Shown here: in pieces, positions 441 through 57,850 of the stretch
Numbering within the stretch: position 1 is the stretch's first letter
How the letters are laid out: each line of letters opens with the position of its first letter
From: Nocardiopsis suaedae
GTDB taxonomy: Bacteria > Actinomycetota > Actinomycetes > Streptosporangiales > Streptosporangiaceae
Direction: 5' to 3'
Length of the DNA: 64,000 nt
Assembly (NCBI RefSeq): GCF_027706745.1
Contig: NZ_JAQFWP010000032.1
Location: 1 to 64,000 of the forward strand
Notes under the pieces: generated by a model
Database searches by the model: none
The model's input: the letters and a program-made list of their open reading frames with translations, nothing else
Told to the model about the DNA's origin: nothing
Translations under genes and position numbers: made by a program

Positions 441-476
441 GGTGGTCGTCTCGGTGGTCGTCTCAGTGGTCGTCGG
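441..476. repeat. 12-nt microrepeat, three units, at the plsX stop
   Basis: GGTGGTCGTCTC occurs at 441-452 and 453-464, and a variant AGTGGTCGTCGG at 465-476. On the minus strand the units read GACGACCAC followed by TGA or CGA. The TGA in the first unit is the plsX stop, and the other two units lie just beyond it. Confidence 0.7.
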
Positions 477-1557: not shown

Positions 1558-1907
1558 GTGTGGATCCTCACTGCTCCGCCGGGGTGCGGCGGTGGCCCGC
1601 CGTGCCCCGGTCCGACGTCTTCTCGCACGTGGTGGGGGGTGTGCCCGCCCAGGGGGCAAGCGTATGCCTCGGCCGTCGGGAGCGCGCGGGGCGCCCCGGT
1701 CGTTCGAGGTCAGGAGGGTATTTGTGGAAAGTGGGTAAGAATCAGCGAAGATCGGGTATATCGGTCCGCTGGTCAGGAGGGTGACCACTCCGGGCCCGAC
1801 AACCCATACGAGATCTCGCCGGGCGCCCCCCCTCCTTCGCCGGGGGCGCCCGGATCAGGCCTGCCCTGCCGACGGCGGGGCGCCTGCCGCACCCTGAAGG
1901 GAGACGC
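1558..1907. other. Intergenic region between divergent plsX and kamA-like gene, with hairpin
   Basis: This 350-bp gap carries the divergent promoters. I see no convincing ORF in it. A 12-bp perfect stem is formed by 1819-1830 with 1842-1853 (CCGGGCGCCCCC against its complement). There is no T-run, and it lies about 55 bp before the kamA-like start, so it could be part of that gene's 5' UTR. An AT-richer stretch lies around 1719-1765. Confidence 0.5.
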
Positions 1908-4992: not shown

Positions 4993-5207
4993 TCGGCCCC
5001 CTCCTGCGCGGACCCGGTCATCCTATGTGCGCGGGGCGCGGCGGCCCGGGCGGATGCGGCCGGAGTCGGCGCGCCGCGCCCGTCTGGGGGATCACCGCAC
5101 CCGCGCCCCGGGGGCAGCGGCGGGGGTGCCTGCGTCGCGCAGGTCCTCCTCCAGGGGTGGGTGACGTGCGCCCCACCGCCGACGGAAGGCCGACAGTGCA
5201 CGGGGTG

Positions 5208-39903: not shown

Positions 39904-41613
39904 CTACCCCCGCTCCCCGTTCTCCAGGTAGAGGTGGTCCCCTTCCCAGCTGCGGCGCAGCCAGCGGTCGTGGCTGGCGACCGCCACCGCTCCGGGCGCG
40001 GTCTTCAACGCCTCCTCCAACTCCTCGCTCAACGCCAGGGAGATGTGGTTGGTCGGCTCGTCCAGCAGCAGCACGTGCGGGGCGGCCGCCACCATCAGGG
40101 CCAGCGCCAGACGGCGGCGCTGGCCCACGCTCAGCTCGCCGACCGGGCGGCGGACGTCGCGGCGCGCCATCAGTCCCAGCTCGTCCAGCGACGGCGCGTC
40201 CGCGATCCTCAGCACCCCCTCTTCGTTCAGCCGGGCGAGCTCCGCGGTGTAGATCTCCCGCGGGGTGCGCTCCGGGTCGGGGAACTCCACGTCCTGCTCC
40301 AGCAGCGCCACCCGGGTCCCGTTGCGGACCTCGACACTGCCCGACACGGGGGCGATGCGCCCCGCCAGGACGTGCAGCAGCGTCGACTTCCCGGCACCGT
40401 TCGGCCCGGTCACCAGCAGCCGCCCGTCCGAGAGCAGGTCCAGGCGGTCGAGGCGGAGCCTGCCGGGCACCTCCAGGCCCCGCGCGCTCAGCGCCGTGCC
40501 CGCGCCCGCGGCCGCGCCGCCGGTGAGCGTCCCGGCGAACGCCAAGGGCTTGGGCGGTTTCCGCACCTGAGTGCCCTCCAGCTCCTCAAGGCGGCGCTGG
40601 GCGTTGCGCACCCTGCGGGACAACTGCTTCTGTACACGCGCCCCCTTGAAGTCGTAGAGCATCTTGCTGTTGTTGCCCAGCGGCCGCCCCGGGGCGACCT
40701 GGCGTGCGGTCACGTCCACCGACACGCGCAGGGCCCGCAGCTCCTCCTGCTCGTCCCGGTAGCGCTGCTCCCAGCGCTGGTAGGCCTTGCGCTTCTCCTC
40801 CAGGTAGAAGGTGTACGCCCCGCCGTAGTAGGTGGGGCCCTGATCGGAGGACGGGTCCAGGTCGAGCAGGCCGGTGCAGACCGCGTCCAGGAAGGCGCGG
40901 TCGTGGCTGGCCAGGACGACGGCGCCGGGGAGGTCGGACAGGAACCCCTCCAGGAACGCCACCGCCTCGTCGTCGAGGTGGTTGGTCGGCTCGTCCAGGA
41001 TCAGCGCGCGCGGGCGCCGGATCAGCAGCGCGGCCAGGGCCAGCCTGCTGCGCTGCCCACCGGACATGGCGGACACGGGCCGGTCGGACTCCACATCGGC
41101 CAGGCCGAGCCCGGCGAGCACCAGTTCCGCACGGCGGTCGGCGTCCCAGACGTCCAGGGCCTCCGCGCGTTCCAGCGCCGCCGCGTAGGCCCGCTGGGCC
41201 GCGTCGCCGCCGTCCTCCAGCGCCTGGGCGCACGCGGTGAGCTCCCGCTCGGCCGCGTGCGGCTCGGACAGCGCCTCGGCGACCGCGTCCCCCAGGGTGG
41301 TGGTCTCGGTGAAGGGCGGCTCCTGGGCGAGGTACCCGGTGTCGCGGGGCCGGGACACGGCGCCGACGTCGGGGTCGGCGGTCCCGGCCAGCAGCGCCAG
41401 CAGGGTCGACTTGCCCGCGCCGTTCTCGCCGACCAGCCCGAGGCGCTGCCCCGGGGCGACGTCGAGCCGCAGGCCGTCGAGGACGGGCCGGGCGCCGTAG
41501 GCCTTGGACAGGTCGCGGGCGCTCAGCAGCGGGGTCGGGCCCTCGGCCGCGCCCCCTTCGGCGGGGGAGCGGTGGGTGCGGCGGAATCGCGGTTCGGTCG
41601 TACGAGAGGTCAA
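39904..41613 (-). CDS. ABC-F family ATPase (ribosome-protection type)
   Basis: This 569-aa soluble protein has two ABC modules and no membrane segment. Module 1: GENGAGKST, MSGGQRSRLALAALL, ALILDEPTNHLD. Module 2: [34 protein letters not shown]. The linker between them (about 250-340, rich in Arg/Glu, YRDEQEELRALRVSV, RVQKQLSRRVRNAQRRLEELE) is the helical arm that reaches into the ribosome. The TTG at 41613 is chosen because GGAGG lies five bases upstream; the GTG at 41619 would overlap that site. Relatives give resistance to macrolides, lincosamides or similar drugs, or act as translation factors. The long leader favours inducible resistance. Confidence 0.85.
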   Translation of the reverse strand: MTSRTTEPRFRRTHRSPAEGGAAEGPTPLLSARDLSKAYGARPVLDGLRLDVAPGQRLGLVGENGAGKSTLLALLAGTADPDVGAVSRPRDTGYLAQEPPFTETTTLGDAVAEALSEPHAAERELTACAQALEDGGDAAQRAYAAALERAEALDVWDADRRAELVLAGLGLADVESDRPVSAMSGGQRSRLALAALLIRRPRALILDEPTNHLDDEAVAFLEGFLSDLPGAVVLASHDRAFLDAVCTGLLDLDPSSDQGPTYYGGAYTFYLEEKRKAYQRWEQRYRDEQEELRALRVSVDVTARQVAPGRPLGNNSKMLYDFKGARVQKQLSRRVRNAQRRLEELEGTQVRKPPKPLAFAGTLTGGAAAGAGTALSARGLEVPGRLRLDRLDLLSDGRLLVTGPNGAGKSTLLHVLAGRIAPVSGSVEVRNGTRVALLEQDVEFPDPERTPREIYTAELARLNEEGVLRIADAPSLDELGLMARRDVRRPVGELSVGQRRRLALALMVAAAPHVLLLDEPTNHISLALSEELEEALKTAPGAVAVASHDRWLRRSWEGDHLYLENGERG

Positions 41614-41862
41614 GGCCACCTCCGAGAAAGGTCGGGGCGGGCCGCGGCGCCGGCGTCCATGGGTGCCCGAGGGCGGGCCCAGACGCGCGGAGCGCGCCGG
41701 ACGCCGTCGTCGAGACCACGCCGGATCAGCGAAGAGCACGTCCCGGACAGGGGACGGGCCGAAACGGACGGGAGGCGCCGGGAGGGGCCGCTCCAGCCTC
41801 AGAGGGCGAGCGGCCGCGGCTCCCGGCGCGTGGTCTCGACGGTCAGTTGCGCATCGCCGGAG
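41614..41862 (-). promoter_or_regulatory. Structured leader of the ABC-F gene
   Basis: The predicted mRNA leader of about 240 nt contains a 10-bp stem (41820-41829 with 41775-41784) and an inner GGCCGCT/AGCGGCC helix. It also has a 13-bp perfect long-range inverted repeat (41829-41841 with 41708-41720). The two helices share the segment at 41829, so they compete. A 3-codon ORF ends just before this segment. This is the geometry of ribosome-stalling attenuation, as known for several antibiotic-induced ABC-F genes; here it is inferred from sequence only. Confidence 0.5.
41843..41854 (-). CDS. Possible leader peptide ORF (Met-Arg-Asn)
   Basis: ATG-CGC-AAC-TGA begins about 9 bases after the predicted -10 box, so it would be nearly leaderless. 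Its stop lies directly before the 5' arm of the long inverted repeat. Too short to support by itself; its placement is the argument. Confidence 0.3.
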   Translation of the reverse strand: MRN

Positions 41863-41891
41863 ACGCTACCCCGGCCCCGGGGCGAGGGCAA
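41863..41891 (-). promoter_or_regulatory. Predicted promoter of the ABC-F gene
   Basis: On the minus strand TTGCCC (41891-41886) and TAGCGT (41868-41863) are separated by exactly 17 bases, a good actinobacterial sigma-70-type promoter. Transcription would start near 41856. Confidence 0.5.
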
Positions 41892-41955
41892 CGGATTTTT
41901 CCGGTGGGGCGGAGCGGCTGCGCACGGCGGATGCCGGATGGCAGGCTTCAGGGCA

Positions 41956-41997
41956 GCGGCCGTCCCCCGGGGCTCTGGGACCCCGGGGGACGGCCGC
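41956..41997. terminator. Perfect 17-bp hairpin between the ABC-F promoter and the next gene
   Basis: The arms 41956-41972 and 41981-41997 are fully complementary around an 8-nt loop. It stands between divergent units and 30 bp before the 42027 gene, so it may be in that gene's 5' UTR or act as a barrier. Confidence 0.5.
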
Positions 41998-42026
41998 GAA
42001 CGGACCCCCTCCGGAGGAGAGAGAGC

Positions 42027-42308
42027 ATGGCCTGGCCCCCTACGGACCCGCTCGGCAGGATCCTCATGGACCTGGCCGGAGCCAAGGTCGTCGAGTACCA
42101 CGGCACCGAGCGCACCGACCGCGGCCGGGTGCACCGGATCACCACGGCGCACGGGTACGAGATCGCCCTCGCCGACGACGAGGTGCTGCCGTTCGCGGTC
42201 GGCGCGGGCGCCGCCGACTTCAACCGCACGCACGCCTACACCCTGGCCGCCGAGCTGGTCGACGAGGCCGTGTACGAGCGCTGGCAGAGCGGCTCCGACC
42301 AGGAGTGA
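42027..42308 (+). CDS. Conserved-looking hypothetical protein, 93 aa
   Basis: A short acidic soluble protein (PLGRILMDLAGAKVVEYHG, RVHRITTAHGYEIALADDEVLPFAVGAGAADFNRTHAYTLAAELVDEAVYERW). The ATG at 42027 follows GGAGGAGAG, so translation is well supported. No family recognised, no Cys, no membrane segment. Confidence 0.65.
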   Translation: MAWPPTDPLGRILMDLAGAKVVEYHGTERTDRGRVHRITTAHGYEIALADDEVLPFAVGAGAADFNRTHAYTLAAELVDEAVYERWQSGSDQE

Positions 42309-42408
42309 CGGACCGGTTCGGGCCCGGTGCGGGGCAGGGCGCGCCCGTCTCCGCGCCGGGCCCGCACGAAAACCGAACCCGGTTCTAGTCGTCGGCGCGG
42401 CGGGTCTG

Positions 42409-42421
42409 TAGTGTTCCGCAC
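42409..42421 (+). promoter_or_regulatory. -10 box for leaderless transcription of the SDR gene
   Basis: TAGTGT (42409-42414) lies 7 bases before the ATG, and there is no ribosome site, so the mRNA probably starts at or next to the ATG. A weak TAGTCG -35 lies 17 bases upstream. Confidence 0.45.
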
Positions 42422-43195
42422 ATGGATCTCAACGGAATTTCCGCCGTCGTCTCCGGCGGCGCGAGCGGGCTCGGCGAAGCGACCGTCCGGCAGCTTGCCG
42501 ACGCCGGCGCCACCGTCGTGGTGGCCGACCTCAACGCCGAGCGCGGCGAGGCCGTGGCCAAGGAGGTCGGGGGCGTCTTCGTCGCCACGGACGTCTCCGA
42601 CGAGGCCCAGGTGCAGGCCGCCGTGCAGGCCGCGGTCGACACCGGCCGCCCCCTGCGCGCCGCCGTGGCCTGCGCCGGGATCGGATGGGCGACCCGCACC
42701 GTGAACCGCGAGGGGCAGCCGCACGACCTGGCCAGCTATAAGAAGGTCATCGACGTCAACCTGATCGGGACCTTCAACCTGCTGCGGCTGGCGGCCGCGG
42801 CCATGTCCGAGACCGAGCCGGTCAACGAGGACGGCGAGCGCGGCGCGATCGTCAACACCGCCTCCCTGGCCGGGATCGAGGGCCAGATCGGGCAGATCGC
42901 CTACTCCTCCTCCAAGGGCGGCGTCATCGGCATGACGCTCCCGGCCGCGCGCGACCTGGCGGCCATCGGCGTCACCGTGAACACGGTGGCCCCCGGCATC
43001 CTCGACACGCCCATCTACGGGCAGGGCCCCGAGTCCGAGCAGTTCAAGGAGCGCCTGGCCGCGCCGGTGCCGTTCCCCAAGCGCCTGGGCACCGCCGACG
43101 AGTTCGGCCGCCTGGTGCGCTCACTGCTGGAGATCAGCTACATCAACGGCGAGGTCGTGCGCATCGACGGCGGCCTGCGCATGCCGCCGAAATAG
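42422..43195 (+). CDS. SDR dehydrogenase, 3-hydroxyacyl-CoA dehydrogenase type II-like
   Basis: This 257-aa SDR has [11 protein letters not shown] (11-21) for NAD, Asp after strand 2 (VVADLN, so NAD-preferring), and the Ser-Tyr-Lys triad in [23 protein letters not shown]. The pattern AAVACAGIG and the insertion [28 protein letters not shown] are characteristic of the HSD10/type II 3-hydroxyacyl-CoA dehydrogenases. An enoyl-CoA hydratase gene follows after 8 bp, so both probably act in beta-oxidation or short-chain acyl-CoA metabolism. Confidence 0.85.
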
Positions 43196-43203
43196 GAGGG
43201 CGC

Positions 43204-43986
43204 ATGGCAGCGGAAGAGGCGATGGGGCCCGAGGTCCGGTTCGAGGCGGCCGACGGCGTCGCCGTGGTCACCATCGACCGGCCCGAGGCGAAGAACGCGG
43301 TGAACGCCGCGGTGGCCAAGGGCATCGCCGAGGCCCTGGACGAGCTGGACGCACGCAAGGACCTGACGGTCGGGATCCTCGCGGGCGCGGGCGGCACGTT
43401 CTGCTCGGGCATGGACCTGAAGGCCTTCATGAAGGGCGAGGTGCCGGTGGTGGAGGGGCGCGGCTTCGCGGGCTTCGCCCAGCGCCCGCCGCGCAAGCCG
43501 CTCATCGCCGCGGTGGAGGGCTACGCCCTGGCCGGCGGGTTCGAGGCGGTGCTCGCCTGTGACCTGGTGGTCGCGGCCGAGGGCGCGAAGTTCGGCATCC
43601 CCGAGGCCAAGCGGGGACTGGTGGCGGCGGGCGGCGGCCTGCTGCGGCTGCACCGGCGCATCCCCCGCAACATCGCCATGGAGTTCGCGCTGACCGGCGA
43701 CTTCGTCGGCGCGCAGCGGATGGCCGAACTGGGGCTGGTGAACACGGTCGTCCCGAGCGGCGGGGCGCTGGAGGGCGCCCGCGCTCTGGCGGCGCGCATC
43801 GCCGGGAACGCCCCGATGGCGGTGCAGGTGTCCAAGGAGGTCATGACGGCCTCCGACGACTGGTCCACCGAGGAGATGTGGACCCGCCAGGACGCCGTCA
43901 CCGGCCCGGTGTTCGTGAGCCACGACGCCATGGAGGGCGCGGCCGCCTTCGCCGAGAAGCGCAAGCCGAACTGGAAGGGCGAGTAG
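43204..43986 (+). CDS. Enoyl-CoA hydratase/isomerase (crotonase) family protein
   Basis: This 260-aa protein has the crotonase pattern: AVVTIDRPEAKNAVN, the oxyanion residues in GTFCSGMDLKAF and ALAGGFEAVLACDLVVAA, and FGIPEAKRGLVAAGGGLLRLHRRI. In this subfamily the first catalytic Glu is replaced (GGFEAVL keeps one Glu), as in many carnitinyl-CoA dehydratase-like members. ATG at 43204 after AGGAGGG, eight bases behind the SDR gene. Confidence 0.85.
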   Translation: MAAEEAMGPEVRFEAADGVAVVTIDRPEAKNAVNAAVAKGIAEALDELDARKDLTVGILAGAGGTFCSGMDLKAFMKGEVPVVEGRGFAGFAQRPPRKPLIAAVEGYALAGGFEAVLACDLVVAAEGAKFGIPEAKRGLVAAGGGLLRLHRRIPRNIAMEFALTGDFVGAQRMAELGLVNTVVPSGGALEGARALAARIAGNAPMAVQVSKEVMTASDDWSTEEMWTRQDAVTGPVFVSHDAMEGAAAFAEKRKPNWKGE

Positions 43987-44012
43987 CCGCAGGTCTTTCG
44001 ACCCTTTCGGCG

Positions 44013-44040
44013 GGGCCGTCCCGGGACACCGGGGCGGCCC
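44013..44040 (+). terminator. Hairpin terminator after the enoyl-CoA hydratase gene
   Basis: 12-nt arms 44013-44024 and 44029-44040 pair with one G-U around GACA. It also lies downstream of the convergent small membrane-protein gene. Confidence 0.6.
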
Positions 44041-44121
44041 GTCGGCGTCCTCGCGCGGAAGCGGGCGCGGCCCCGGTGGGAGGGACGGGCGGCGGACGGA
44101 GCGCGCCGCCCACCGGGGCCG

Positions 44122-44313
44122 CTATTTGGCCTTCACGATGATGACGAGTGCGATCACGACGACGGTGAGGACCAGGCCGAGGGCGCCGATATTGACCTCC
44201 CACGGGCCGATGCCCACCGTTGCATCAAGGATTTCGGTCACGTCTTCGTATTCAGATCCGTGGGGGGCGATGCGGGGGTCGATGTCGGTCCGGAGAAGAC
44301 AACTATGGAACAC
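44122..44313 (-). CDS. Small single-helix membrane protein
   Basis: Up to 63 aa. The last 20 residues are a clear membrane helix with a short positive end (GALGLVLTVVVIALVIIVKAK). The start is uncertain: GTG at 44313 (AAGG upstream) gives 63 aa, GTG at 44241 gives 39 aa beginning VTEILDATVGIG. It lies downstream of the GAP-family gene on the lanthipeptide strand. The region has lower GC than its neighbours. Function unknown; not a plausible lanthipeptide precursor (one Cys at most, in the doubtful N-terminus). Confidence 0.5.
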   Translation of the reverse strand: MFHSCLLRTDIDPRIAPHGSEYEDVTEILDATVGIGPWEVNIGALGLVLTVVVIALVIIVKAK

Positions 44314-44379
44314 CCGGCCGCCTTGCGCATCGTTCCCCGAGAGGATCTCTGTGTCATGAGAAATATGTAGGCACGCCGT

Positions 44380-45093
44380 TCAGGCGGCGTCTCTGAGGGC
44401 GTCCAGAAACCGCTGGAAGAGCGTGGAGTCCGACAGGAGCAGGAATCCGGCGATCGCGAGCAGCCACGCCGTGTTCTCCTGCGCGTTGTCCCGCAGCCAG
44501 GTGTCGACCCGGTCCAGGACCGGGCGCAGCGCCCCGCGCGAGGCCTGGAACAGCAGGGTGGCCAGGAGGGCGGGGGCGACCATGACCAGGCAGTAGACCG
44601 CGAGGACGGGGGCGGCGCCGGCCCCGGTGAGCCCCTGCCCGGACAGGATGTCCATCGCGGCCAGGTAGGGGAACATGGTGGGGACCTCGAGCGCCACGGC
44701 GAGGAGCGCCACCGTGAGGACCCCGCCCGCCGACGCGTCCTCGCCGACCGCGGACTCGCGCCACCGGGTCAGGCGGCCCAGACCGGAGGCGGGCCGCCTG
44801 CGCATTCCGTACCACAGCCCGGCCAGGATGAGCGCGGCCCCGGCTGCCCCGAGCGCCGTGTCGGCGGCCGGTGAGGCCAGCACGTCGCCCAGCGGATCGC
44901 GCAGCCGGTCGACCGCGCCCGTGAGCAGCACGCCGAGCAGCAGGTAGCCGCCGCCGACGAGCGCCAGGTAGAGCAGGACGTTGCCGATCCGGGGGCCCCG
45001 GGGGGCCAGCAGGAACCAGACCGGGATCGCCAGCGTGGCGACGCTGACGGTGTCCAGGAGTGCGAGCGGGAGAAGCTGTCCGAGGGTTTCCAC
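44380..45093 (-). CDS. GAP-family (LysE-like) membrane transporter
   Basis: This 237-aa protein has six hydrophobic segments in the GAP/Sap layout (LLPLALLDTVSVATLAIPVWFLLAP at the start; VPTMFPYLAAMDIL in the middle). GAP proteins export or address lipids, for example glycopeptidolipids and sulfolipid in mycobacteria. The GTG at 45093 follows AGGAACG. Located 57 bp downstream of the lanthionine synthetase on the same strand, it could export or protect against an acylated peptide (inference). Confidence 0.72.
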   Translation of the reverse strand: METLGQLLPLALLDTVSVATLAIPVWFLLAPRGPRIGNVLLYLALVGGGYLLLGVLLTGAVDRLRDPLGDVLASPAADTALGAAGAALILAGLWYGMRRRPASGLGRLTRWRESAVGEDASAGGVLTVALLAVALEVPTMFPYLAAMDILSGQGLTGAGAAPVLAVYCLVMVAPALLATLLFQASRGALRPVLDRVDTWLRDNAQENTAWLLAIAGFLLLSDSTLFQRFLDALRDAA

Positions 45094-45150
45094 GTGGTGC
45101 CGTTCCTAGGTCGGGCGGTCCCGCCGGGGCGGGGCGCCCCGACGGCGGCC

Positions 45151-47799
45151 TCAGAAGAGCCCGGGCAGCCAGTCGTCGCGGCGGCCGGTGGCGAACGCGA
45201 CGCCGGTGAGAACCCCGGCGCCGCCGGTCCGCAGGTCGCCGGAGATCCGGAAGTTCCCGGAGCCCGGGTAGTGGAGGCCGCGGCCGTTCGGCCGCAGCTC
45301 GTGCAGTCCGAGCCGGTCGGCGTGCCGCCGGACCAGGGGGTCGGCCGACGCGCCGTGGCCGTCCCGCGCGAGCTGGGCCAGCCCCGCGAGGAACCCGGCG
45401 CGGCCGCGGAACAGCCCCGCCTGCACCATGAGCTCGGGGCCCAGCGCCCGCATCAGGTCCGGCACCGAGGCGCCGCGCGGGCGCCACCCGTCGCGGCGGC
45501 CCAGCTCGGCGACGGCGAGCGCCGTGCCGCACGATCCCTCCTCCAGGTAGGCGAGGGTGCGCCTGCCCTGCTCGTTGTACTGCAGCGACCCGTCCGTGCA
45601 CCGCACGTAGGCGGCCAGTTCGCGCTCCACCAGCTCCCGGGCCGTGTCCACGGCCGAGGGGTCGTCGGCCAGGACGCCGTACCGGTGGGCGGCCAGGCCG
45701 ATCCCGGCCAGGCCGTGCATCAGCCCGTGGGCGGCCCCCGGCCCGCCGTCGGAGGAGTGCGGCCGGGCGGCGAGCCCGTGGGCGCGGTCGGCCAGCTCGG
45801 CGCCGATCCGTTCGGCCTCCGCCCGCTCCACGATCGGGTCGGGGCCCCCGGCCATCGCGGCGACGGCGAGGAAGATGCCGGCCGTCCCGCCGAAGACGCC
45901 GCTGCCGCAGCCGGAGCGGTCCTTGGCCAGGGCGGCGTCCACGCACCAGCGCGCGTGGTCGGGCCATCCCGCCCTCCACAGCGCGTAGCCCGCGCCGAGT
46001 TCGCTGTCGTACAGCCCGCAGTGCGGACGGTCCGTCGCGCCGCGGGCGTTGGCGAGGGTCCACTCGGCGATCCTGCGCACGAGGCCGGGCTCGTACACGC
46101 CGTCGGTGCCCAGGAGGGACCACAGGACACCGGCGCTCCCGGTGGCCAGCGACACCGGGGACAGCGAGAACCCCGTGGGGTCGCAGGGGAACAGGCGGTC
46201 GGTCCTCTCCTCGGACATGGAGGCGCGGAACCCCTCCACGACCTGCCCGGCCCACCCCTCGAACCCGAGGGCGCCGTCGAGGTGGCCGGAGGCCGCCGGG
46301 GGCGCCCCCGCGGCCCTGCCCGTCGTGGCTGGAACGGGGTCCGGTGCGGGCGCGGCGTCGGGCGTCCCGGTGCCGACGAAGGTCCGGCGGATCCGCTCCG
46401 CCCACTCGGCGGAGAGGTCGAACATCTCCCGGGCGGCCGCTAAGAACGGGGTGAGCTTGGCCGGGTCGAGCCGTAGGAGCGGGGTCAGCGGCAGGTAGCA
46501 CGACAGCTCCAGCAGGCGCAGCCCGTACTCGTCGCCGTCCCGGCCCTGGCGCCGCACGTCGCTGAAGCCGGGCGCCCCGGGGAACGGCCGATGCTCGCCC
46601 AGGGGGACGCAGGCCTCAAGGTCGATGAGGGTCGCCTCGCCCTCGGGCGAGACCATGATGTTCCCGGGGTGCAGGTCCCCGATGGCGTAGCCGTGCTCCC
46701 AGGCCGCCTCCACCGCCTGGGCCACCTGTTCCAGGACCGCCTCGATCCGCTCCCGGTAGTCCTTGGCCTCGGCGGGCGCCGGAGGCGCGAAGGGGTCGGG
46801 CCGCAGCAGGTAGGGGTGGTTGGCGGCGGACCACTCCTGGAGGGTCGTGCCGCGGATGTACTCCATGGAGGTGAAGACGTGCGACTGCCAGGTGAACCGG
46901 TCGTAGACCTCGGGGAAGCCGGGCAGGCCGGAGAGGGCGCGCAGGGCCTCGTACTCGCGGGCGGCCCGCCGGACGGCGTCGCCGCCGACGAGGTCGAGCC
47001 CGGCGTAGGGGCGCGCCTCCTTGAGCACGACCCTGCGCCCTGAGCCCGAGGCGCCCTCCGAGGCGAGGTAGACGCCGCCGCCGTTGCTGAAGTGCAGGGC
47101 CTTGTCGATCCGGTAGGGCAGGCGGTCGCCGCCGTCGCGGGATCGCGGGGGCGGCCGGAAGAGGGAGGGGACGCTCACGAAGTCGGGGGCCTTGAACGGC
47201 ACCGTGCGGGGGTCGGGGACCGGCCGCCCGTCGCCCCCCGTCATCGCCTGGCGGACGCGGCCCCGCTCGTCGCGGCAGTACCGGCGCACGAAGGCGCCGT
47301 ACCGTGCGTGCACGACGGTGTCCCCCACCCGGGCGTCGGACAGGATCCGCGGCCCCTCGGTCCCGCGTGTGCGCTCCGCCAGCTCGGCCGCCAGCGCGAC
47401 GGACTCGTGCTCGTCGGCGGGGTAGACCGCGATGCCCTTCCCGCTTCCCGACCGCGCCGCGTACTTGGCGTTGACCAGCCAGGCGTACTCGTACCGGGAG
47501 AGGAACTTGAAGGGGGCGCGCCACCGGCGGCACACGTCGGCGACGGTGTGCAGGAGCGGCTCGAAGGTGTCGGGCGTCACCGCGATGTGCAGCTTCCACC
47601 CCTGGTCGGGCAGCGGCCGGTCCTCGGGGCGGCACAGGGTCCAGATCCCGGTGCCCGAGCGGGTCCAGCCCTCGGCGTAGGGCAGGGGGACCGGCCCCTT
47701 GCGCACACGGGTGAAGCGCGGGTCGCCGGGGTCGCACCGCCAGCGGCCGATGTCGTCGTAGAAGTCGGGGTCGGCGAAGGTGAAGTAGAAGCGTTCCAC
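45151..47799 (-). CDS. Class III lanthionine synthetase LanKC
   Basis: This 882-aa trifunctional enzyme phosphorylates Ser/Thr of a precursor peptide, eliminates phosphate to give dehydro-residues, and cyclises. Domains in order: lyase (1 to about 215), protein kinase (about 228-480; Lys260 in VVLKEA, GDLHPGN at 374-380, IDLEA at 392-396 in place of DFG) and LanC-like cyclase (about 530-882). The cyclase lacks the Cys-Cys-His zinc ligands: the CHG position reads LFRGRAG, and the other conserved segments read HGLMHGLAG and EEGSCGTA. This places it in class III, not IV. The GTG at 47799 follows GAGGAG. It lies 10 bp behind the LanD gene. Confidence 0.9.
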   Translation of the reverse strand: MERFYFTFADPDFYDDIGRWRCDPGDPRFTRVRKGPVPLPYAEGWTRSGTGIWTLCRPEDRPLPDQGWKLHIAVTPDTFEPLLHTVADVCRRWRAPFKFLSRYEYAWLVNAKYAARSGSGKGIAVYPADEHESVALAAELAERTRGTEGPRILSDARVGDTVVHARYGAFVRRYCRDERGRVRQAMTGGDGRPVPDPRTVPFKAPDFVSVPSLFRPPPRSRDGGDRLPYRIDKALHFSNGGGVYLASEGASGSGRRVVLKEARPYAGLDLVGGDAVRRAAREYEALRALSGLPGFPEVYDRFTWQSHVFTSMEYIRGTTLQEWSAANHPYLLRPDPFAPPAPAEAKDYRERIEAVLEQVAQAVEAAWEHGYAIGDLHPGNIMVSPEGEATLIDLEACVPLGEHRPFPGAPGFSDVRRQGRDGDEYGLRLLELSCYLPLTPLLRLDPAKLTPFLAAAREMFDLSAEWAERIRRTFVGTGTPDAAPAPDPVPATTGRAAGAPPAASGHLDGALGFEGWAGQVVEGFRASMSEERTDRLFPCDPTGFSLSPVSLATGSAGVLWSLLGTDGVYEPGLVRRIAEWTLANARGATDRPHCGLYDSELGAGYALWRAGWPDHARWCVDAALAKDRSGCGSGVFGGTAGIFLAVAAMAGGPDPIVERAEAERIGAELADRAHGLAARPHSSDGGPGAAHGLMHGLAGIGLAAHRYGVLADDPSAVDTARELVERELAAYVRCTDGSLQYNEQGRRTLAYLEEGSCGTALAVAELGRRDGWRPRGASVPDLMRALGPELMVQAGLFRGRAGFLAGLAQLARDGHGASADPLVRRHADRLGLHELRPNGRGLHYPGSGNFRISGDLRTGGAGVLTGVAFATGRRDDWLPGLF

Positions 47800-47809
47800 A
47801 CCGGGCTCC

Positions 47810-48436
47810 TCAGGAGGCGGGGCCGGCGGCGGGGCCGTCCTGCGGACCGCCCGTCCCCTGCCCGGCCTCTTCGAACGCGCTGACGGCCTCCCACAGGGGC
47901 GCGGCGACGTCGGCCTCGCGGCCGACGCTGCTGCTCGCCTTCTTCCGGGTGGGCACCAGCCGGTACCCGGGGACCTCCGCGAGGCGGGCGAGCACGCCGC
48001 GCACGATCGGGTTGTCGGCGACGCCCGGAGGCAGGGACGGCGCCAGGACCACGGGGACCTGGGCCCCCAGCGCGGCCAGGGTGAACGGCTTGTCCCCGGA
48101 CCCCGAGGCGAGTGCGGACAGGAAGGCGACGGAGGCCGGGTAGACGATGATCCCGTCGTGGCCCTCGGCGATGGAGGTGTGCACCGGCCGCAGCCCGTCC
48201 GGGGTGGTCCAGGTGTTGGAGACCACCGGTGAACCGGTCAGCGCCGTGAGCGCGGCCGGGCTGACGAACTCCTTCGCGGAGTCGGTGAGCCCGGCGGTCA
48301 CCGTGTAGTCCGGCCGGTTCGTCGCGAGCCAGTTGAGCCAGAAGGGCAGGTGGGCGGTGGACAGGGTGCCCGTCGCGATGAGGAAGAGGTCGGCCTTGCG
48401 GGACCGGGCCTCATCGTCGTGGCGGAATTCGGCCAT
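47810..48436 (-). CDS. LanD-type flavoprotein cysteine decarboxylase (HFCD family)
   Basis: This 208-aa FMN protein is like EpiD/MrsD and Dfp. LFLIATGTLSTAHLPFWL is the flavin-binding start; the catalytic His is in LRPVHTSIAEGHDGIIVYPAS, and PASVAFLSALASG stands for the PASANT motif. LanD enzymes oxidatively decarboxylate a C-terminal Cys to an aminoenethiol, which then forms AviCys or, with class III LanKC, avionin. The ATG at 48436 has TTGGAG seven bases upstream. Directly upstream of lanKC and clearly coupled. Confidence 0.85.
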   Translation of the reverse strand: MAEFRHDDEARSRKADLFLIATGTLSTAHLPFWLNWLATNRPDYTVTAGLTDSAKEFVSPAALTALTGSPVVSNTWTTPDGLRPVHTSIAEGHDGIIVYPASVAFLSALASGSGDKPFTLAALGAQVPVVLAPSLPPGVADNPIVRGVLARLAEVPGYRLVPTRKKASSSVGREADVAAPLWEAVSAFEEAGQGTGGPQDGPAAGPAS

Positions 48437-48518
48437 GCGGTTCTCCAACCGGTCGGCCCGGTCTCCCGGGGTGTTCTGCGACTCCTCTCTCCCGGTGCGG
48501 AACCGACCGCCCCGGGGC

Positions 48519-48785
48519 TCACCGGTCCCGGTCGTCCCGGCGGTCCCCGGACCCGGACGACCGGCCGCCGAAGCCGATGTCGTCCTTGACGTCCTCGAAC
48601 AGGGACTTGGGCTTGTGGCCCCGGGAGCGGCGGAACTCGTCGCCCAGGTCCAAAACGCCGATCAGGATGAGCAGAAGGCCCAGCGGACCGCCCTGGAACC
48701 AATAGAATTCGAGGTCCCAGAAGAAAATGGAAAGAATCGCGCCGGCGGCCACGAGTGCAAGTCCGATGACCGTCTTGAAGCCCAT
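48519..48785 (-). CDS. Small membrane protein, 88 aa
   Basis: Two close hydrophobic segments (TVIGLALVAAGAILSIFFW and GGPLGLLLILIGVLDLG) are followed by a charged tail of 40 residues (DEFRRSRGHKP, DRRDDRDR). The ATG at 48785 has AAGGGGGG upstream. It sits between the thioesterase and lanD on the same strand. Function unknown; immunity or a scaffold role in the lanthipeptide locus is possible, but it may be unrelated. Confidence 0.65.
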   Translation of the reverse strand: MGFKTVIGLALVAAGAILSIFFWDLEFYWFQGGPLGLLLILIGVLDLGDEFRRSRGHKPKSLFEDVKDDIGFGGRSSGSGDRRDDRDR

Positions 48786-48896
48786 GGCTCCCCCCTTCGG
48801 AATCGTCGTCCACCACTGCCTCCCGCAGCCTAGCGCGGTCCCGGGAGGCGGGGACTCCTGCGATCCGAGGAGATCCGGCCGGGCCGGTGTACATCT

Positions 48897-49631
48897 TTAT
48901 GCGTATTGGCGGCACAGGGCGGCGATGCCGAAAACGGCGTTCCGTATGCGGCCGGAGTCCTCCGCCAGAAGGAAGTGGCCGCCCGGGTGGAATACGACCT
49001 CCACCTCCTCGGCCACCTCCGTCCAGGGCCGGACCGCCTCGGGCGGGAAGAGCCGGTCCTCCTGGCCGCCGAAGACGTGCACGGGCACGCCCAGCGGGCG
49101 CTCCTGCGGCCGGTGGCGGTAGGAGGCGCACAGGCCGGCGTCGTCGCGTACCAGCCCCAGGAACGGCTCCAGCCACTCCGGGTTCCTGAAGAGCCACTGC
49201 GGGATCCCTCCGATCTCGTACAGGCGGCGGGCGAGTTCCCGGTCGTCGCCGGTGGAACCGAGGTCGGGACGGGGCAGGTGCGGGGCCCCGAAGGCGGCGA
49301 CGGCGAGCGCCGCCGGGCGCGGCCCGCCCCCCCTCGCAGAAGCGCCGGGCCAGCAGGTAGGCCAGCAGGCCGCCCATGCTGTACCCGAACAGGACGTAGC
49401 CGCCGTCGTCCACCTCGCGCTCCAGCCGGTCGGCGAGGACGGGGACGAGCCCGTCGGCCGTGCGGTGGCGGCGCCGGCGCACCCGCCCCCGGTCGTCGGC
49501 AGTACCACCGGCGCCACCTCGACACCGTCGGGGGCGGCCCGGCTCCACGGCCGGAACAGCGAGGGGTGCCCGCCCGCGTGGTGCAGGCACACCAGGGTCA
49601 CGGGCGGCCCCGTCGGGCCCGGTGTCAGCAC
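48897..49631 (-). pseudogene. Type II thioesterase, frameshifted twice
   Basis: Both ends read as a type II (RifR/GrsT-like) thioesterase: TLVCLHHAGGHPSLFRPW at the start; GVPVHVFGGQEDRLFPPE and HPGGHFLLAE with the catalytic Asp and His at the end. The middle 50 or so codons, with the nucleophile motif FGYSMGGLLAYLLARRF, are in another frame. The shifts map to homopolymers: C5 at 49486-49490 (one base short) and C7 at 49327-49333 (one base extra). They compensate, so one 244-aa frame stays open but lacks GxSxG. Sequencing error or true decay cannot be separated here. The GTG at 49631 overlaps the PKS stop. Confidence 0.75.
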
Positions 49632-50880
49632 GCGGACCCCTCCTCTCCGTCCTCTTCGGCCCCACCGTCCCCGTCGACGGCCCGCAGCAGGTGGCCGGCG
49701 AGGGCGTCGATGGTGGGGTGCTCGAACACGACCGCTTGGGGCAGGCCGACGCGCGCCGCCTGCTGCAGGCCGTGGCGGAGCCGGATGGCCGTCAGGGAGT
49801 CGAGCCCGTTGGCGAACAGGTCGCCGTCGCCGTCCACCTCCTCCGCGCGGCCGAGCACGGTGCCGACCTGCCGCCGCACCTCCCGCACCAGCAGCGCGCG
49901 GCGCTCCTCCCCACGGGCCGCGTCCAGGGCGGCCCGGAAGTCCGCCGGACGGGCCGCGGCACCCGCCGGGGGCCGGTCCGGCAGCAGGGGAAGCAGGCTG
50001 GGCAGGGTGTCGGCGGCGTGGTCGGCCAGCCGCCGCCAGTCGGTCGGCAGGACGGCGACCGGATCCGCGAACGGCCGCTCCGCCAGCAGCCCGAGGAGCG
50101 CGGCCCCGCCCTCCTCGACGGGGATGGTGCCCTCACCGCTGCGCTCCAGGTCCTCGTCCAGCCCCGCGCGGTGGCTCATCCCGGTGCCCGCCCACGACCC
50201 CCACTGGACGGCGGCCGTCGGGGCGCCCAGCGCGTTCCGGTAGGAGGCCAGGCCGTCGAGGAACGCGTTGCCCGCCGCGTAGCCCGCCTGCCCCGGCGTC
50301 CCCAGGAGCGCGGACGCGGAGGAGTACAGGACCAGGGCGTCCAGGTCCGTGTCGCGGGTCAGCAGGTGCAGGTTCCAGGCTCCGACGGCCTTGGCCGCCA
50401 TGGCGCGGCGGACGCGGTCGCGGGTCTGGAGCAGGAGGGCGCCGTCGTCGAGCGCTCCGGCCAGGTGCAGCACGGCGGCCAGGGGCGGCAGCTCCGCCTC
50501 TCGCCCGACCGCGTCGAAGGCCGCGGTCATCGACTCCAGGTCGGCGGCGTCGGCGGTGAACGTCCGGACACAAGCGCCCGCGTCCCGGAGCCGTGTGATG
50601 CCCCGCGCCGTCTCGGCGCCGGGTGCGCCGCGGCCGACCAGGACGAGGTGGCGGGCGCCCGCCGCGTGCAGGGTCCGCGCCGCCTCCAGCCCCAGGCCGC
50701 CGGTCCCTCCGGTGATCAGGTAGGTGCCGTCGGGCCGGACCGGGGCGGGGGCGCCGCCCGGTGCGGGGCGCCGCGGGTGCACGCGGGCGACATGGCGCCG
50801 CTCGCGGGCGTAGCCGACCTGTTCGCGGGGAGCGGCCCGGCCCCTGCGGACAGGGCGGCGAGTTCGTCGAACAGCCGTCG
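49625..50880 (-). pseudogene. Type I polyketide synthase, KR-ACP terminal fragment (5' side missing)
   Basis: The ketoreductase has GTYLITGGTGGLGLEAAR for NADPH and catalytic Lys, Ser, Tyr and Asn (AAKAVGAWNLH, LYSSASALLG, GYAAGNAFLD). A carrier domain follows with the phosphopantetheine serine in FANGLDSLTAIRLRHGL. The C-terminus is acidic. Upstream of the KR, GYARERRHVARV continues the PKS pattern, then RLFDELAALSAG appears in another frame (a base seems lost in the G4 run at 50827-50830). Near 50880 PKS-like sequence stops and antisense kinase sequence begins. KS/AT domains are absent, so the gene is truncated. Confidence 0.8.
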
Positions 50881-51464
50881 CCAACCGCTTCAGCGTCATC
50901 GTCGTCCAGTCCAGCGCCCTGCTGCGCCGGGACGACCTGGACGCACAGACCCGGACGCGGCTGCTCACCCGGATCTACGACGACGGTCGGCAGGGGCTCG
51001 AGGAACTCCGCATGATGATCGACGTCCTGCGCAGGGAGACGGGCGAGGACGGCGGCGACGAGCCTTCCGTGACCGCCTTCGGCGGGGCGGAGGACATCGG
51101 GTCCCTCGCGCGGAGCCACGGCGGGGACGTGGACCTTGAGGTGTCGGGGACGGTGCGCCCCCTGTCGGCCGCGGCCGGGCACGCCGCCTACCGCATCACC
51201 CAAGAGGCGATCACCAACGCGCTCAAGCACTGCGGGGGACCCGTCTCCGTCCGCATCGCCTACCGTGAGGAAGAGGTCGAGTTGTCCATAGAGAACACGC
51301 TCTGCGGGGGCGCCCGGCCGGGGCCGCCCGGCGGCGGATTCGGCGTCCCCGGCATGCGGGAGCGCGCCGAGTTCCTGGGCGGGCGCATCACGGTCGGCCC
51401 CGCCGGGGACGGGGTGTGGCGCGTGTGCGCGGTCCTGCCCGCGCCCGTGGGGGCGGGCCGGTGA
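50877..51464 (+). pseudogene. Sensor histidine kinase, 5' half missing
   Basis: From GTC at 50877 the frame reads VANRFSVIVVQSSALLRR, the part of a HisKA_3 helix that follows the phospho-acceptor His, then LEELRMMIDVLRRE and an intact ATPase domain ([29 protein letters not shown]). The His, the membrane part and any start codon are missing: no ATG, GTG or TTG occurs in frame between the last stop and 51012. Its other end is intact and overlaps the response regulator gene (GTGA). A product cannot be a functional kinase. Confidence 0.8.
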
Positions 51465-52096
51465 TCCGCGTCGTTCTCGCCGACGACCAGGACGCCGTCC
51501 GCACCGGGCTGTCGCTGATCCTGAACGGGGCCGAGGACATCGAGGTGGTCGCCGAGGCGGCCGACGGCCAGGAGGCCGTCGACCTCGCGCACGAGCTGGT
51601 CCCGGACGTGCTGATCATGGACATCCGGATGCCGCGCAGGGACGGGATCTCCGCCACCCGGGAGATCGGACCGACCTGCGACGTCCTCATCCTCACCACC
51701 TTCGACCTCGACGAGTACGTCTTCGCCGCGCTGCGCGCCGGTGCGGCGGGCTTCCTGCTCAAGAGCACCGACAGTGACACGCTCATCCACGCCGTGCGCC
51801 TCGTCGCCCGGGGCGAGGGCATGATCGCCCCGGCCGTGACGCGCCGCCTCATCCGCTCCTTCGCGGCCTCGCCCGCGGACGCCTCCCCGGAGCCCCGGCT
51901 GGAGCGCCTGACCGGCCGCGAGCGCGAGGTGCTCAGGTGCATCGGCCGCGGGCTGTCCAACCTGGAGATCGCCGAGCGGCTGGACATGGCCGACGCCACC
52001 GCGAAGACGCATGTCAGCCGGATCCTGTCGAAGCTGGAGCTGAAGAGCCGGGTCGAGGCGGCCATCGTCGCCCAGGAACAGGAACGGGGGCTGTGA
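51461..52096 (+). CDS. NarL/LuxR-family response regulator
   Basis: This 211-aa regulator has a receiver domain (DDQD near the start, phospho-acceptor Asp in [13 protein letters not shown], residue about 53, Lys in LLKSTDSD) and a LuxR HTH ([43 protein letters not shown]). The GTG at 51461 overlaps the truncated kinase gene, its former partner. With the kinase broken it may be unregulated or respond to another kinase. Confidence 0.88.
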
Positions 52097-52177
52097 GCCC
52101 GTCGGCGTGGGCGCCTCCCCGCCGCGCGGCGTGAGCCGGGCTGGAAGGGCGGACGGCCCCGGGCCGCGAGGAGGAGG

Positions 52178-52207
52178 CGGGCCGCCCCGGGACGCCGGGG
52201 CGGCCCG
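52178..52207 (+). terminator. Hairpin terminator of the kinase/regulator unit
   Basis: A perfect 13-bp stem (52178-52190 with 52195-52207) around GACG. Confidence 0.65.
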
Positions 52208-52547
52208 TCGGCGTAGGCGAGGAACGGGTGCGCGGGCAGGGATGTAAGGAACCTTCACCGGTTAGTAAACCCATCTCCGACAAAGGGCGTCTTACGGGTG
52301 AAATCTGGGGGACGAGAGTTCCGTGTTCGCCGAGTCCCGGGGAGAGGCGGGCGGACCACCGATCTCCCGGCAGTGCCGAGTGCTCTGGGATGCGCAGGTC
52401 AGAGGTCCGCACAGCGAAGAGAAAGGGTGAAGCGCATCCCTCGACGGTCCGCGCTCAAATGAGCGCTGCGCCGTTCCATCCCCCGTTTCCAGGGTGCCCG
52501 ACGCTGTCTTTTCCGTGCCCGCCTTCAATCACACGGAGTAGTCATCG
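52208..52547 (+). other. 340-bp leader region of the phosphatidyltransferase gene
   Basis: No credible ORF. The sequence is clearly less GC-rich than its surroundings and holds elements such as GGTTAGTAAACCC near 52260 and ACGGGTGAAATCTGGGGG near 52295. A long, low-GC, non-coding 5' region suggests a structured leader or several promoters. I could not match it to a known riboswitch consensus. Confidence 0.35.
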
Positions 52548-53609
52548 ATGCCCTTTGACGGGTTCACTCTCGCCGACGTCCGCGAGAGGACATATAAGAA
52601 GCGTGATTCGTGGTGGACGGTCTACCTCGTGGACCCCGTCGCCGCACGCCTGGTCCTGTTCACCGCGAACCGGACCTCCCTCACGCCCGACCACCTGACG
52701 ACCGCCGCGCTCCTGCTGGGCTGCGCCGCCGCGTTCTCCTTCGGCCGGGCCGACGTGCTCGGGCTGGTCCTGGGGGCGGTCGTCTTCCATGTCAGCTTCC
52801 TGCTGGACTGCATGGACGGCAAGATCGCCCGCTTGAAGGGCAACGGCACGGTCTTCGGGTCCTGGCTGGACTACGTGTTCGACCGGGTGCGCGTGCTCAT
52901 CTGCACGCTCGGCCTGATGGGCGGGCAGTTCGCCGCCACCGGGGACACCGTCTACATCTGGTTCGCGCTCGTCGTCGTCTTCACGGACATGTTCCGCTAC
53001 CTCAACTCGCCCCAGATGGCGAAGGTCCGCAAGAAGATGCGGCGCGCGCAGAGGGCGCGGGTGCGCCGCGGGCTGACGGAGGCGGATATCGGGGACGAGG
53101 CCTTCGTCCGGGTGCTCGGCGAGAAGCGGTACGGCGAGCTGCGGCCCCGCTTCCTCGACGAGGTGCCCGACGAGGAGGCCGCCGGGGACGGCGGTGGCGC
53201 CGTCGGCGGAGAGGCGGACGGTCTCGGCGCCTCCAGGCTCTCCTACGTGCCCGAGGAGCCTCCGTCGGGCAGCCTCGCCGAGCGCTTCCCCGCCTACGCC
53301 CGCTTCCGGGACGCGCTGCTGCGCCACCGCGTCCGCCCCCACCTGTTCAGCGGCATCGAGTTCCAGATGGGCGTGTTCATCGTCGCCCCGCTGGTGGGCG
53401 CCTTCTTCCCGGGCGCCATGCTGTGGGTCGTGGGCGCCTCCTGTGCGGGCCTGCTGTTCTTCGAGTCCTTCATCGTGGGACGGCTCTGGCAGGCGTCGCG
53501 GCGCTATGAGCGCGAGGCGGTCGTCCTGGACGAGCTCGTGCTGAGCGCGGCCGGCGACGGCGCCGAGCCGCCGAACGCGGGCCGGGCCGGGGAGAAGGCC
53601 GCCGTGTAA
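52548..53609 (+). CDS. CDP-alcohol phosphatidyltransferase family protein
   Basis: This 353-aa membrane enzyme transfers a phospho-alcohol from a CDP-activated donor. The complete motif D-x2-DG-x2-AR-x8-G-x3-D-x3-D is present in LLDCMDGKIARLKGNGTVFGSWLDYVFDR (about residues 84-112). Hydrophobic segments flank it, and a charged cytoplasmic insertion of about 110 residues (about 160-270) separates them from the last two helices. The ATG at 52548 follows CGGAG. The alcohol acceptor is unknown. Confidence 0.85.
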   Translation: MPFDGFTLADVRERTYKKRDSWWTVYLVDPVAARLVLFTANRTSLTPDHLTTAALLLGCAAAFSFGRADVLGLVLGAVVFHVSFLLDCMDGKIARLKGNGTVFGSWLDYVFDRVRVLICTLGLMGGQFAATGDTVYIWFALVVVFTDMFRYLNSPQMAKVRKKMRRAQRARVRRGLTEADIGDEAFVRVLGEKRYGELRPRFLDEVPDEEAAGDGGGAVGGEADGLGASRLSYVPEEPPSGSLAERFPAYARFRDALLRHRVRPHLFSGIEFQMGVFIVAPLVGAFFPGAMLWVVGASCAGLLFFESFIVGRLWQASRRYEREAVVLDELVLSAAGDGAEPPNAGRAGEKAAV

Positions 53610-53625
53610 GGGCGGTCCGAGCCGT

Positions 53626-53666
53626 CGCGGGGCGGGCACCGGCACCCTGCCGGCGCCCGCCCCGCG
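53626..53666 (+). terminator. Strong hairpin after the phosphatidyltransferase gene
   Basis: 19-nt arms (53626-53644 and 53648-53666) pair with one mismatch around CCC. Confidence 0.75.
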
Positions 53667-53844
53667 CGTCTCCGCGGCGCCGGGGCGCGGCCCCGCGGGT
53701 GCCCGCCGCGCGGCCTGAGCACCGCGAAGCGTGACGGTGACCCCGCACGCTAAAGGAAACAGTGGTTGGTGTCGCCGTCGCGTGAGGGATCGATGGCGAA
53801 ACTCGATTTTTACAACGGAATCCCTTGTCGTAGGCCTGTGTGCT

Positions 53845-53865
53845 CTGTCAAGGTACCGAGGACAG
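53845..53865 (+). promoter_or_regulatory. Possible operator before the polyamine operon
   Basis: CTGTC (53845-53849) and GACAG (53861-53865) are inverted around a GGTACC core, 40 bp before the first gene. The surrounding 53735-53905 is AT-richer and must hold the promoter. No regulator gene is adjacent. Confidence 0.3.
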
Positions 53866-53905
53866 CAAATGTGCCTTGCATCACCTTCGTCAGGGAGTGC
53901 CACGC

Positions 53906-55357: not shown

Positions 55358-55368
55358 GTGAGGGCACG

Positions 55369-56547: not shown

Positions 56548-56613
56548 GGCCCCGGCGCCCGCGGACCGCACCACCGGGAACCACCATCCCCCGACACGGA
56601 AGAGAGTCCTCCC

Positions 56614-57840: not shown

Positions 57841-57850
57841 GGCGGCGCGC

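Follow-up and report, generated by a model that had tools for sequence, protein, structure and literature searches.

Several kinds of described peptide clusters resemble the locus analysed here, which lies in a 64,000-nucleotide stretch of the Nocardiopsis suaedae genome (C32:1-64000, the window) and holds a class III lanthionine synthetase (LanKC), a peptide-cysteine decarboxylase (LanD) and the end of a polyketide synthase (PKS). Clusters of the labyrinthopeptin type are not known to have a cysteine decarboxylase or acyl-chain genes. Goadvionins reportedly combine a class III synthetase and a polyketide part with acylation by a GNAT, and lipoavitides are said to carry a FabH-started fatty acid on a ribosomally synthesised and post-translationally modified peptide, with no need of an A-PCP-PKS megasynthase or an amidinotransferase. 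Nocavionin, which the first-pass annotation of the window had placed in Nocardiopsis, presumably comes from a Nocardia. Nocaviogua, whose core reads Ala-Avi-Val-Ser-Avi-Asn/Asp-Gly-Avi, is from Nocardia (PMC10435860). antiSMASH has had a lipolanthine rule since 2019 (PMC6602434), one survey covers lanthipeptide clusters with PKS, fatty acid synthase (FAS) or non-ribosomal peptide synthetase (NRPS) genes (PMC7268733), and a 2023 paper, which adds two lipolanthines, puts the earlier number at 12 in three groups and describes microvionin as strongly active against methicillin-resistant Staphylococcus aureus (PMC10435860). Lipolanthine clusters are therefore known as a kind, of which the intact clusters described below are further members. 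Among the titles and abstract beginnings of the open papers searched on lipolanthines and related lipopeptides, no description of these particular clusters was found; they may figure in the supplements of primary papers.

The first-pass annotation, made from the letters of the window, had read the locus as lipolanthine-type. The class was right, but in this genome a deletion has left only part of the cluster, joined to one half of a sensor kinase gene, and it is dead here. Our preferred reading, to which we give a probability of roughly 0.8, is that it is the downstream half of a lipolanthine cluster killed by a deletion, and that the product of the intact cluster would be an avionin octapeptide which, like microvionin, bears a guanidino acyl chain on its N-terminus. 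What the sequences establish is which genes are present, how they are ordered and conserved, that there is a precursor, and that the assembly has a deletion; the chemistry and the product we infer throughout from sequence comparison.

The remnant and its intact counterpart

The minus strand of the window carries, in the order of transcription, a KR-ACP PKS end, a thioesterase, an 88-aa membrane protein, the LanD flavoprotein, LanKC and SfLAP (Table 1). The first five stand where the first-pass annotation had placed them, in agreement with the domain matches; the 88-aa protein itself has no match in Pfam or NCBIfam. LanKC exceeds by 122 bits the cut-off of 575 bits set for NF038151, the NCBIfam equivalog of class III LanKC. 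Among five other genomes of the genus, that of N. chromatogenes YIM 90109 (contig 48) has a LanKC that is 96% identical to the one in the window. A region of 39.8 kb around the N. chromatogenes locus aligns with the window on both sides of the junction, with 96% identity up to 50879, and N. chromatogenes has 13,905 bp more exactly between 50879 and 50880, where the rearrangement point of the first-pass annotation is now confirmed by the break in the alignment. The edges of the extra stretch lie in the middle of the megasynthase gene on one side and at the histidine box of a sensor kinase on the other. Both of these genes are cut in the window, and therefore it is the N. suaedae genome that lost DNA and not N. 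chromatogenes that gained it. In N. chromatogenes the extra stretch contains the precursor, the amidinotransferase, the A-PCP-KS-AT-DH portion of the megasynthase, FabH, ACP, the reductase, both FabD-like proteins and both GNATs. Deleted from the window cluster are thus the precursor, the amidinotransferase, KS, AT, FabH and the acyltransferases, so that the cluster cannot work as it stands.

Table 1. Features of the window and further genes of the intact cluster in N. chromatogenes (positions with the prefix L015 or L067)
Feature	Position	Strand	Evidence or remark
63-aa open reading frame (ORF) with one hydrophobic stretch (by eye); doubtful cluster part	44122..44313	-	match clear in N. chromatogenes only (85%) among 12 loci
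SfLAP / GAP-family membrane protein	44380..45093	-	PF11139 E 1e-24
Class III lanthionine synthetase LanKC, frame intact	45151..47799	-	NF038151 697 bits; RamC_N E 6e-60
LanD, HFCD-type peptide-cysteine decarboxylase, frame intact	47810..48436	-	PF02441 E 4e-9
88-aa membrane protein (by eye)	48519..48785	-	kept with the acyl cassette in 9/9 orthologous loci and G841
Type II thioesterase (PF00975), frame broken by 2 compensating 1-base indels	48897..49631	-	comparison with N. chromatogenes, where the frame holds
KR-ACP remnant, C-terminal end of an A-PCP-KS-AT-DH-KR-ACP megasynthase	49625..50879	-	KR E 4.5e-55; PP-binding
Deletion junction, 13,905 bp of N. chromatogenes absent, 2-bp overlap (GC)	50879..50880		alignment to N. 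chromatogenes
HisKA_3 sensor kinase 3' remnant, cut just behind the histidine box	50880..51464	+	HATPase_c; 403-aa full kinase in N. chromatogenes
LuxR/GerE-type response regulator, presumably paired with the cut kinase	51416..52096	+	Response_reg and GerE
GNAT-like protein	L015:6617-7273		
Precursor	L015:6414-6509		
FabH-type synthase	L015:5255-6316		
ACP	L015:5011-5247		by resemblance, without Pfam match
GNAT	L015: about 4370-4999		PF13302 E 1.7e-8
Reductase	L015:3603-4373		
Two FabD-like proteins	L015:2686-3606 and 1806-2699		
Amidinotransferase	L067: about 240-1430		
A-PCP-KS-AT-DH-KR-ACP megasynthase	L067:1430-8779		

From the kinase side, the N. chromatogenes genes run GNAT-like, precursor, FabH, ACP, GNAT, reductase, two FabD-like, amidinotransferase, megasynthase, thioesterase, 88-aa protein, LanD, LanKC and SfLAP. 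A scan of the genomes of 84,980 species with a LanD alignment gave 12 loci; since it requires exact matches to two peptide patterns, further clusters may exist, and it may omit the window's own genome. Nine of the 12 loci carry the cluster in the same order, across the three genera Nocardiopsis, Streptomyces and Nonomuraea: N. chromatogenes, Streptomyces natalensis, S. flavochromogenes, S. jumonjinensis, a Streptomyces metagenome-assembled genome, S. albidochromogenes, Nonomuraea candida, Streptomyces aureus and Streptomyces sp. ISL-10. The remaining three hold a different avionin-type cluster. LanD, the 88-aa protein, the thioesterase (searched for with the window copy, frame error included), the amidinotransferase, FabH, ACP, the reductase, both FabD-like proteins and both GNATs are present in all nine, as is LanKC, which is cut by the contig end in S. 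aureus; KS-AT-DH-KR is present in all except ISL-10. SfLAP occurs in all eight orthologous loci that are long enough to reach it, the ninth ending earlier. The LanKC of N. chromatogenes is 55.9-58.7% identical to those of the eight other clusters (one copy being the cut one), and for LanD the identity across these eight is 62-68%. The TAHLPFW motif of LanD, whose histidine we take to be the catalytic residue, is retained in the window copy and in all nine orthologues.

Behind lanKC the first-pass annotation had seen a GAP-family transporter and two tiny membrane proteins as possible export or immunity parts. Judged by their conservation, SfLAP and the 88-aa membrane protein are parts of the cluster and the 63-aa ORF is not. 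This ORF, beyond the GAP-family gene, is the one plausible tiny membrane protein that we found behind lanKC, and as an immunity protein it was rejected, being poorly conserved among the 12 loci. SfLAP may possibly serve the export of a lipid or lipopeptide.

The precursor had been expected beyond the rearrangement point, and in N. chromatogenes it is found there. An ORF of 30-31 aa lies between the GNAT-like gene and the FabH gene in all nine orthologous clusters, reading MMDIADVMDLQGEEVVADGVELPASTASDGC in N. chromatogenes and MDLTNVMELQGTEIVADGVELPASTSSDGC in S. natalensis, with a GGAGG site in all five that were checked. Each of the nine ends in Ser-x-x-Ser-x-x-Cys, and Val replaces the preceding Ala in two; a precursor with this ending was not found in the N. 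suaedae genome, where the best match to the precursor has an E-value of 1.12. The core ASTASDGC, or Ala-Ser-x-x-Ser-Asp-Gly-Cys, shares the register of nocaviogua. Because the register is equal, cleavage is likely to occur after the proline, which would make the Ala (or Val) the acylated residue.

PKS/FAS genes had been proposed earlier as the source of the acyl chain. A PKS is indeed part of the cluster, but the acyl line consists of an NRPS-PKS fusion, an amidinotransferase and a separate FabH/ACP set. The amidinotransferases of the nine clusters are 76-89% identical to the copy in another Streptomyces genome (G841, see below), and in all ten genomes the gene stands directly before that of the megasynthase. 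The protein matches a solved L-arginine:glycine amidinotransferase at E 4e-80 and SxtG at E 4.5e-65. The amino-acid adenylation domain TIGR01733 is matched with 352 bits (cut-off 317), and its pocket residues, located by eye with the GrsA numbering, are identical at most positions in all nine. A guanidino acid is indicated as the starter because the amidinotransferase adjoins the A-PCP loading part. The GNAT-like protein has no single-sequence Pfam match in N. chromatogenes and a weak one in two of the nine members (best E 0.046); when the nine are combined into a profile, it matches PDB acetyltransferases of the SpeG type at E 5.5e-6. The presence of two GNATs might point to two acyl parts. 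The FabD-like proteins are both without a Pfam match (the second was tested with a longer start); one has weak NCBIfam matches to FabD and MdcH, and the other is named from its position and a GxSxG motif.

In the pathway that we propose, LanKC would bind the 30-31 aa precursor through its MDLTNVxxLQ-type leader and would phosphorylate and eliminate both serines of the core [AV]SxxS[DE][GT]C. LanD would then oxidatively decarboxylate the C-terminal cysteine, and ring closure via both dehydroalanines would give avionin. The amidinotransferase would yield the guanidino acid, to be loaded by the A-PCP part of the megasynthase and extended and reduced by KS-AT-DH-KR-ACP with the aid of FabH, the free ACP, the reductase and the two FabD-like transferases. 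A GNAT would attach the acyl chain to the residue left N-terminal by removal of the leader, which is Ala or, in two species, Val, and SfLAP and the 88-aa membrane protein might provide product export or producer protection. In N. suaedae, a 13.9-kb deletion with a 2-bp overlap removed the upstream half along with the start of the sensor kinase. The acyl group might instead be a short acid derived from an amino acid or from FabH, with the amidinotransferase acting elsewhere and a product nearer to the lipoavitides than to microvionin. This would fit the single extension module, which the ISL-10 homologue lacks, and the FabH, ACP and reductase, which resemble the reported lipoavitide recipe; we consider it unlikely, as the amidinotransferase stands directly before the megasynthase gene in each of the nine loci and in G841.

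The deletion and the state of the remnant

The N. suaedae genome (6.97 Mb) is a draft of 139 contigs, and the three indels found in the thioesterase and the PKS remnant all fall in G runs, a usual kind of sequencing error. The junction could on these grounds be an artefact of assembly in a genome that has the full working cluster. We regard this as improbable, since the joined ends share only 2 bp, which leaves no repeat to mislead the assembler, and since neither a near copy of the missing 13.9 kb nor the precursor was found on the other contigs of a genome rated 99.98% complete. The search of the genome for the missing DNA, in which the best 40 of 1323 and of 1503 first-look candidates were scored, gave 38 and 11 matches and no near copy: none longer than 200 bases was above 69% identity, and none above 80% was longer than 60 bases. 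The first-pass annotation had proposed to look through the whole genome for the KS/AT module and the precursor; none of this cluster was found there, and both are present in N. chromatogenes. KS-type matches number 11 in the N. suaedae genome; those on C29, C13, C7, C38 and C15 are long, and C29 and C38 also have partial ones at their ends. As the missing module these genes were rejected, the N. chromatogenes DNA matching their contigs at only 64-77%, bar one piece of 36 bases, and we took them to be, probably, other PKS genes.

With the deletion as the preferred explanation, the state of what is left can be compared with N. chromatogenes. The thioesterase of the window, present as reported before, does not have an intact frame: a G run at 49485 is one base shorter and a G run at 49326 one base longer, and between these two compensating indels the frame shifts and GYSMGG is lost into another frame. 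A third G-run indel lies at 50826 in the PKS remnant. LanKC, LanD, the 88-aa protein and SfLAP have no frame-breaking indels in the same comparison. The ratio of nonsynonymous to synonymous substitution rates (dN/dS) is 0.42 in LanKC, 0.68 in LanD, 0.58 in KR-ACP, 0.34 in the 88-aa protein and 0.06 in SfLAP, with 0.44 in the kinase remnant and 0.07 in the response regulator; among the flanking genes, three to the left give 0.10-0.19 and three to the right 0.33-0.45. LanKC and LanD in the window are open but probably useless frames, and they may be unexpressed because the upstream end of the operon is gone. When positions 39904-58729 of the window are compared with N. chromatogenes, synonymous divergence lies at about 0.13-0.14 for the three genes to the left of roughly 44 kb but at 0.03-0.065 across the remnant and the right flank, which look as if they had been exchanged more recently between the two species.

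Several points weigh against the reading of a deleted lipolanthine cluster with a guanidino acyl product. A single assembly underlies both the junction and the G-run indels, and the latter may be errors of sequencing. There are 20 frame-breaking indels in total, of which 17 fall in six called ORFs that do not belong to the cluster, many of them close to a start or where the alignment is poor, and because of these the three in the remnant speak only weakly for decay. Nor is relaxed selection proved, since the dN/dS of LanKC and LanD, though above the left flank, is near that of the right flank. HFCD enzymes usually carry a PASANT motif, and LanD reads PASVAF at this site. The nearest solved relatives of LanD are CypD (6jdd) and the flavoprotein 6jls, which we take to be TvaF. 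As 6jls has PATAAT at the same site, the idea that LanD without the asparagine is a dead or different enzyme was dropped. The amidinotransferase has no NCBIfam match and only a short PF02274 match at or just over the cut-off, and its assignment comes from the PDB sequences. In place of the usual DH motifs (HxxxGxxxxP and an Asp), two of eight DH domains lack the glycine and all eight have Glu at the Asp site. A guanidine N-methyltransferase and a leader protease were not recognised in the cluster, the former without a dedicated search. In addition, none of these clusters has a product known to us.

Exchange of parts and wider relatives

The avionin-type clusters of Sinosporangium and Nonomuraea (L076-L078) are like the present ones in that LanKC adjoins LanD and the precursor has a single cysteine (MDLSNILELQELE[VP]APEYAELPGSNNSTITC in G124 and G074). 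Their LanD, however, is just 38-40% identical, and the acyl-cassette queries have no matches there. Near-identical precursors ending in PGSNNSTITC were seen in Nonomuraea indica (L063/L066) and Sinosporangium siamense (L064/L065), about 1 kb from LanD in one locus and some 20 kb in the other, with glycosyltransferase- and sugar-type genes and several GNATs around them by eye.

Streptomyces G841 (L175-L177) combines the two types. The parts of its acyl cassette show 45-70% identity, the amidinotransferase being 76% identical between it and N. chromatogenes, and the thioesterase, the 88-aa protein and SfLAP accompany them. Its LanKC and LanD are of the Sinosporangium/Nonomuraea type, with an identity of 48-58% to the members of that type as against 36% to LanKC and LanD of N. 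chromatogenes. The precursor, MDLTNILELQGEEIVAEGVELPASTGSSTC, sits between the acyl half and the LanKC/LanD half, and a second frame between the GNAT-like gene and FabH, ending in MDPRGTESAAEGAELSASTSSDGC, resembles a former precursor whose leader has decayed. SfLAP and the 88-aa protein seem to handle the lipid part, because in G841 both stay with the acyl cassette, away from LanKC. Transposase-like ORFs were noticed by eye near this locus.

LanKC and LanD alone are no sign of acylation and LanKC-type genes are common, but it is very improbable that the locus is a class III cluster of the labyrinthopeptin-like or AviCys kind with an unrelated PKS as its neighbour, because the order megasynthase, thioesterase, membrane protein, LanD, LanKC is kept in nine of nine loci in three genera and G841 keeps the acyl cassette beside a related precursor despite a LanKC and LanD of another type. 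Neither of the outcomes that the first-pass annotation had named as telling against it occurred, be it a LanKC and LanD closest to a non-acylated family whose orthologous clusters are free of PKS genes or a PKS that belongs to another cluster in relatives, as the orthologous clusters do carry a PKS in the same place, next to LanD and LanKC.

The megasynthase of ISL-10 (L075 6925-8943) has 672 aa in one frame, with the A domain and the last carrier protein; PCP1-KS-AT-DH-KR is gone in frame and the other cluster genes are present. This may be a real loss or a collapse of the assembly between carrier domains. A further reading, which we offer tentatively and at somewhat less than even odds, is that these clusters form a separate lipolanthine subfamily with a composite tail, in which a guanidino acid from the NRPS-PKS line and a second acyl unit from the FabH line would be joined and attached by the two GNATs. 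The acyl cassette, with SfLAP and the 88-aa protein, would then be a movable module that can pair with another LanKC and LanD (G841), drop its PKS module in frame (ISL-10) or be lost by deletion (the window).

The wider relatives of the two enzymes are more scattered. LanD is matched at E <= 1e-18 in 18 of 394 genomes of the class, that of N. suaedae included, in 21 places; at the orthologous level there is none in these genomes besides that of N. suaedae. The acyl cassette was absent from the 14 of the 21 places that were fetched (L130 matches two queries weakly), and L137 alone had a match to LanKC within what was fetched, at a distance of 8 kb from LanD. By eye, this locus (L137/L142 in G485, a 3.2-Mb genome), where the LanKC-like and the LanD-type gene are about 8 kb apart, also has genes resembling those of peptidases and ABC transporters, and no lipolanthine-kind cluster was seen around it. 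Of 392 Streptomyces genomes sampled, 29 match LanD at E <= 1e-50, and four do so at E < 1e-95, namely the centre, S. natalensis, and three that were already known. The weaker matches comprise 26 loci, one of which (L148) is the module swap of G841, while 25 showed no LanKC within the 3.5 kb that were fetched. LanKC-type genes are frequent, with a match in 147 of 200 genomes of the family; among the matches listed, those outside N. suaedae and N. chromatogenes are 32-41% identical. A plasmid location was considered for LanKC and rejected, all 28 plasmid records being below 60% identity. N. suaedae itself has a second, distant class III LanKC (G000:C9:60713-63349, 40% identical).

Comparison with described systems

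Ten relatives were located, each with a precursor: nine orthologous clusters, one with a reduced megasynthase and one cut by a contig end, and Streptomyces G841. Several are culture-collection strains, such as S. natalensis ATCC 27448. From the intact relatives come the precursor, the prediction of an avionin peptide with a guanidino acyl group, and examples of the loss and exchange of parts; the PKS loss in ISL-10 and the LanKC/LanD exchange in G841 can be seen as natural experiments on the combination of tail and ring. The window also calls for caution, as a cluster finder may report a lipolanthine where just one half of a dead cluster remains.

Like described lipolanthine clusters, the present ones have a class III LanKC, a LanD beside it and PKS/FAS genes for an acyl chain, of which the window keeps only KR-ACP and N. 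chromatogenes has the full set. The two GNATs of the intact clusters, recognised from the genes, and the amidinotransferase as a guanidino source in all nine orthologues and G841, both fall within the stretch missing from the window. Membership among the lipolanthines therefore applies to the intact clusters, and the window copy is a remnant only. Labyrinthopeptin-type clusters are set apart by the LanD and the acyl genes conserved here. By their reported description, the goadvionins share the class III synthetase, the polyketide part and the GNAT; they differ, by the same description, in that the present clusters have one NRPS-PKS fusion, a FabH/ACP set and an amidinotransferase. The likeness to lipoavitides lies in the FabH-type synthase, ACP, reductase and acyltransferase that adjoin the precursor, and the difference in the A-PCP-PKS megasynthase and the amidinotransferase. 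With respect to the microvionin type, the core residues differ and no guanidine methyltransferase was recognised here, while the acyl lines may be the same. LanKC, LanD and a single-cysteine Ser-x-x-Ser-x-x-Cys core are common to microvionin, nocavionin, nocaviogua and the intact clusters, and the amidinotransferase of the latter fits a guanidino acyl group of the microvionin type.

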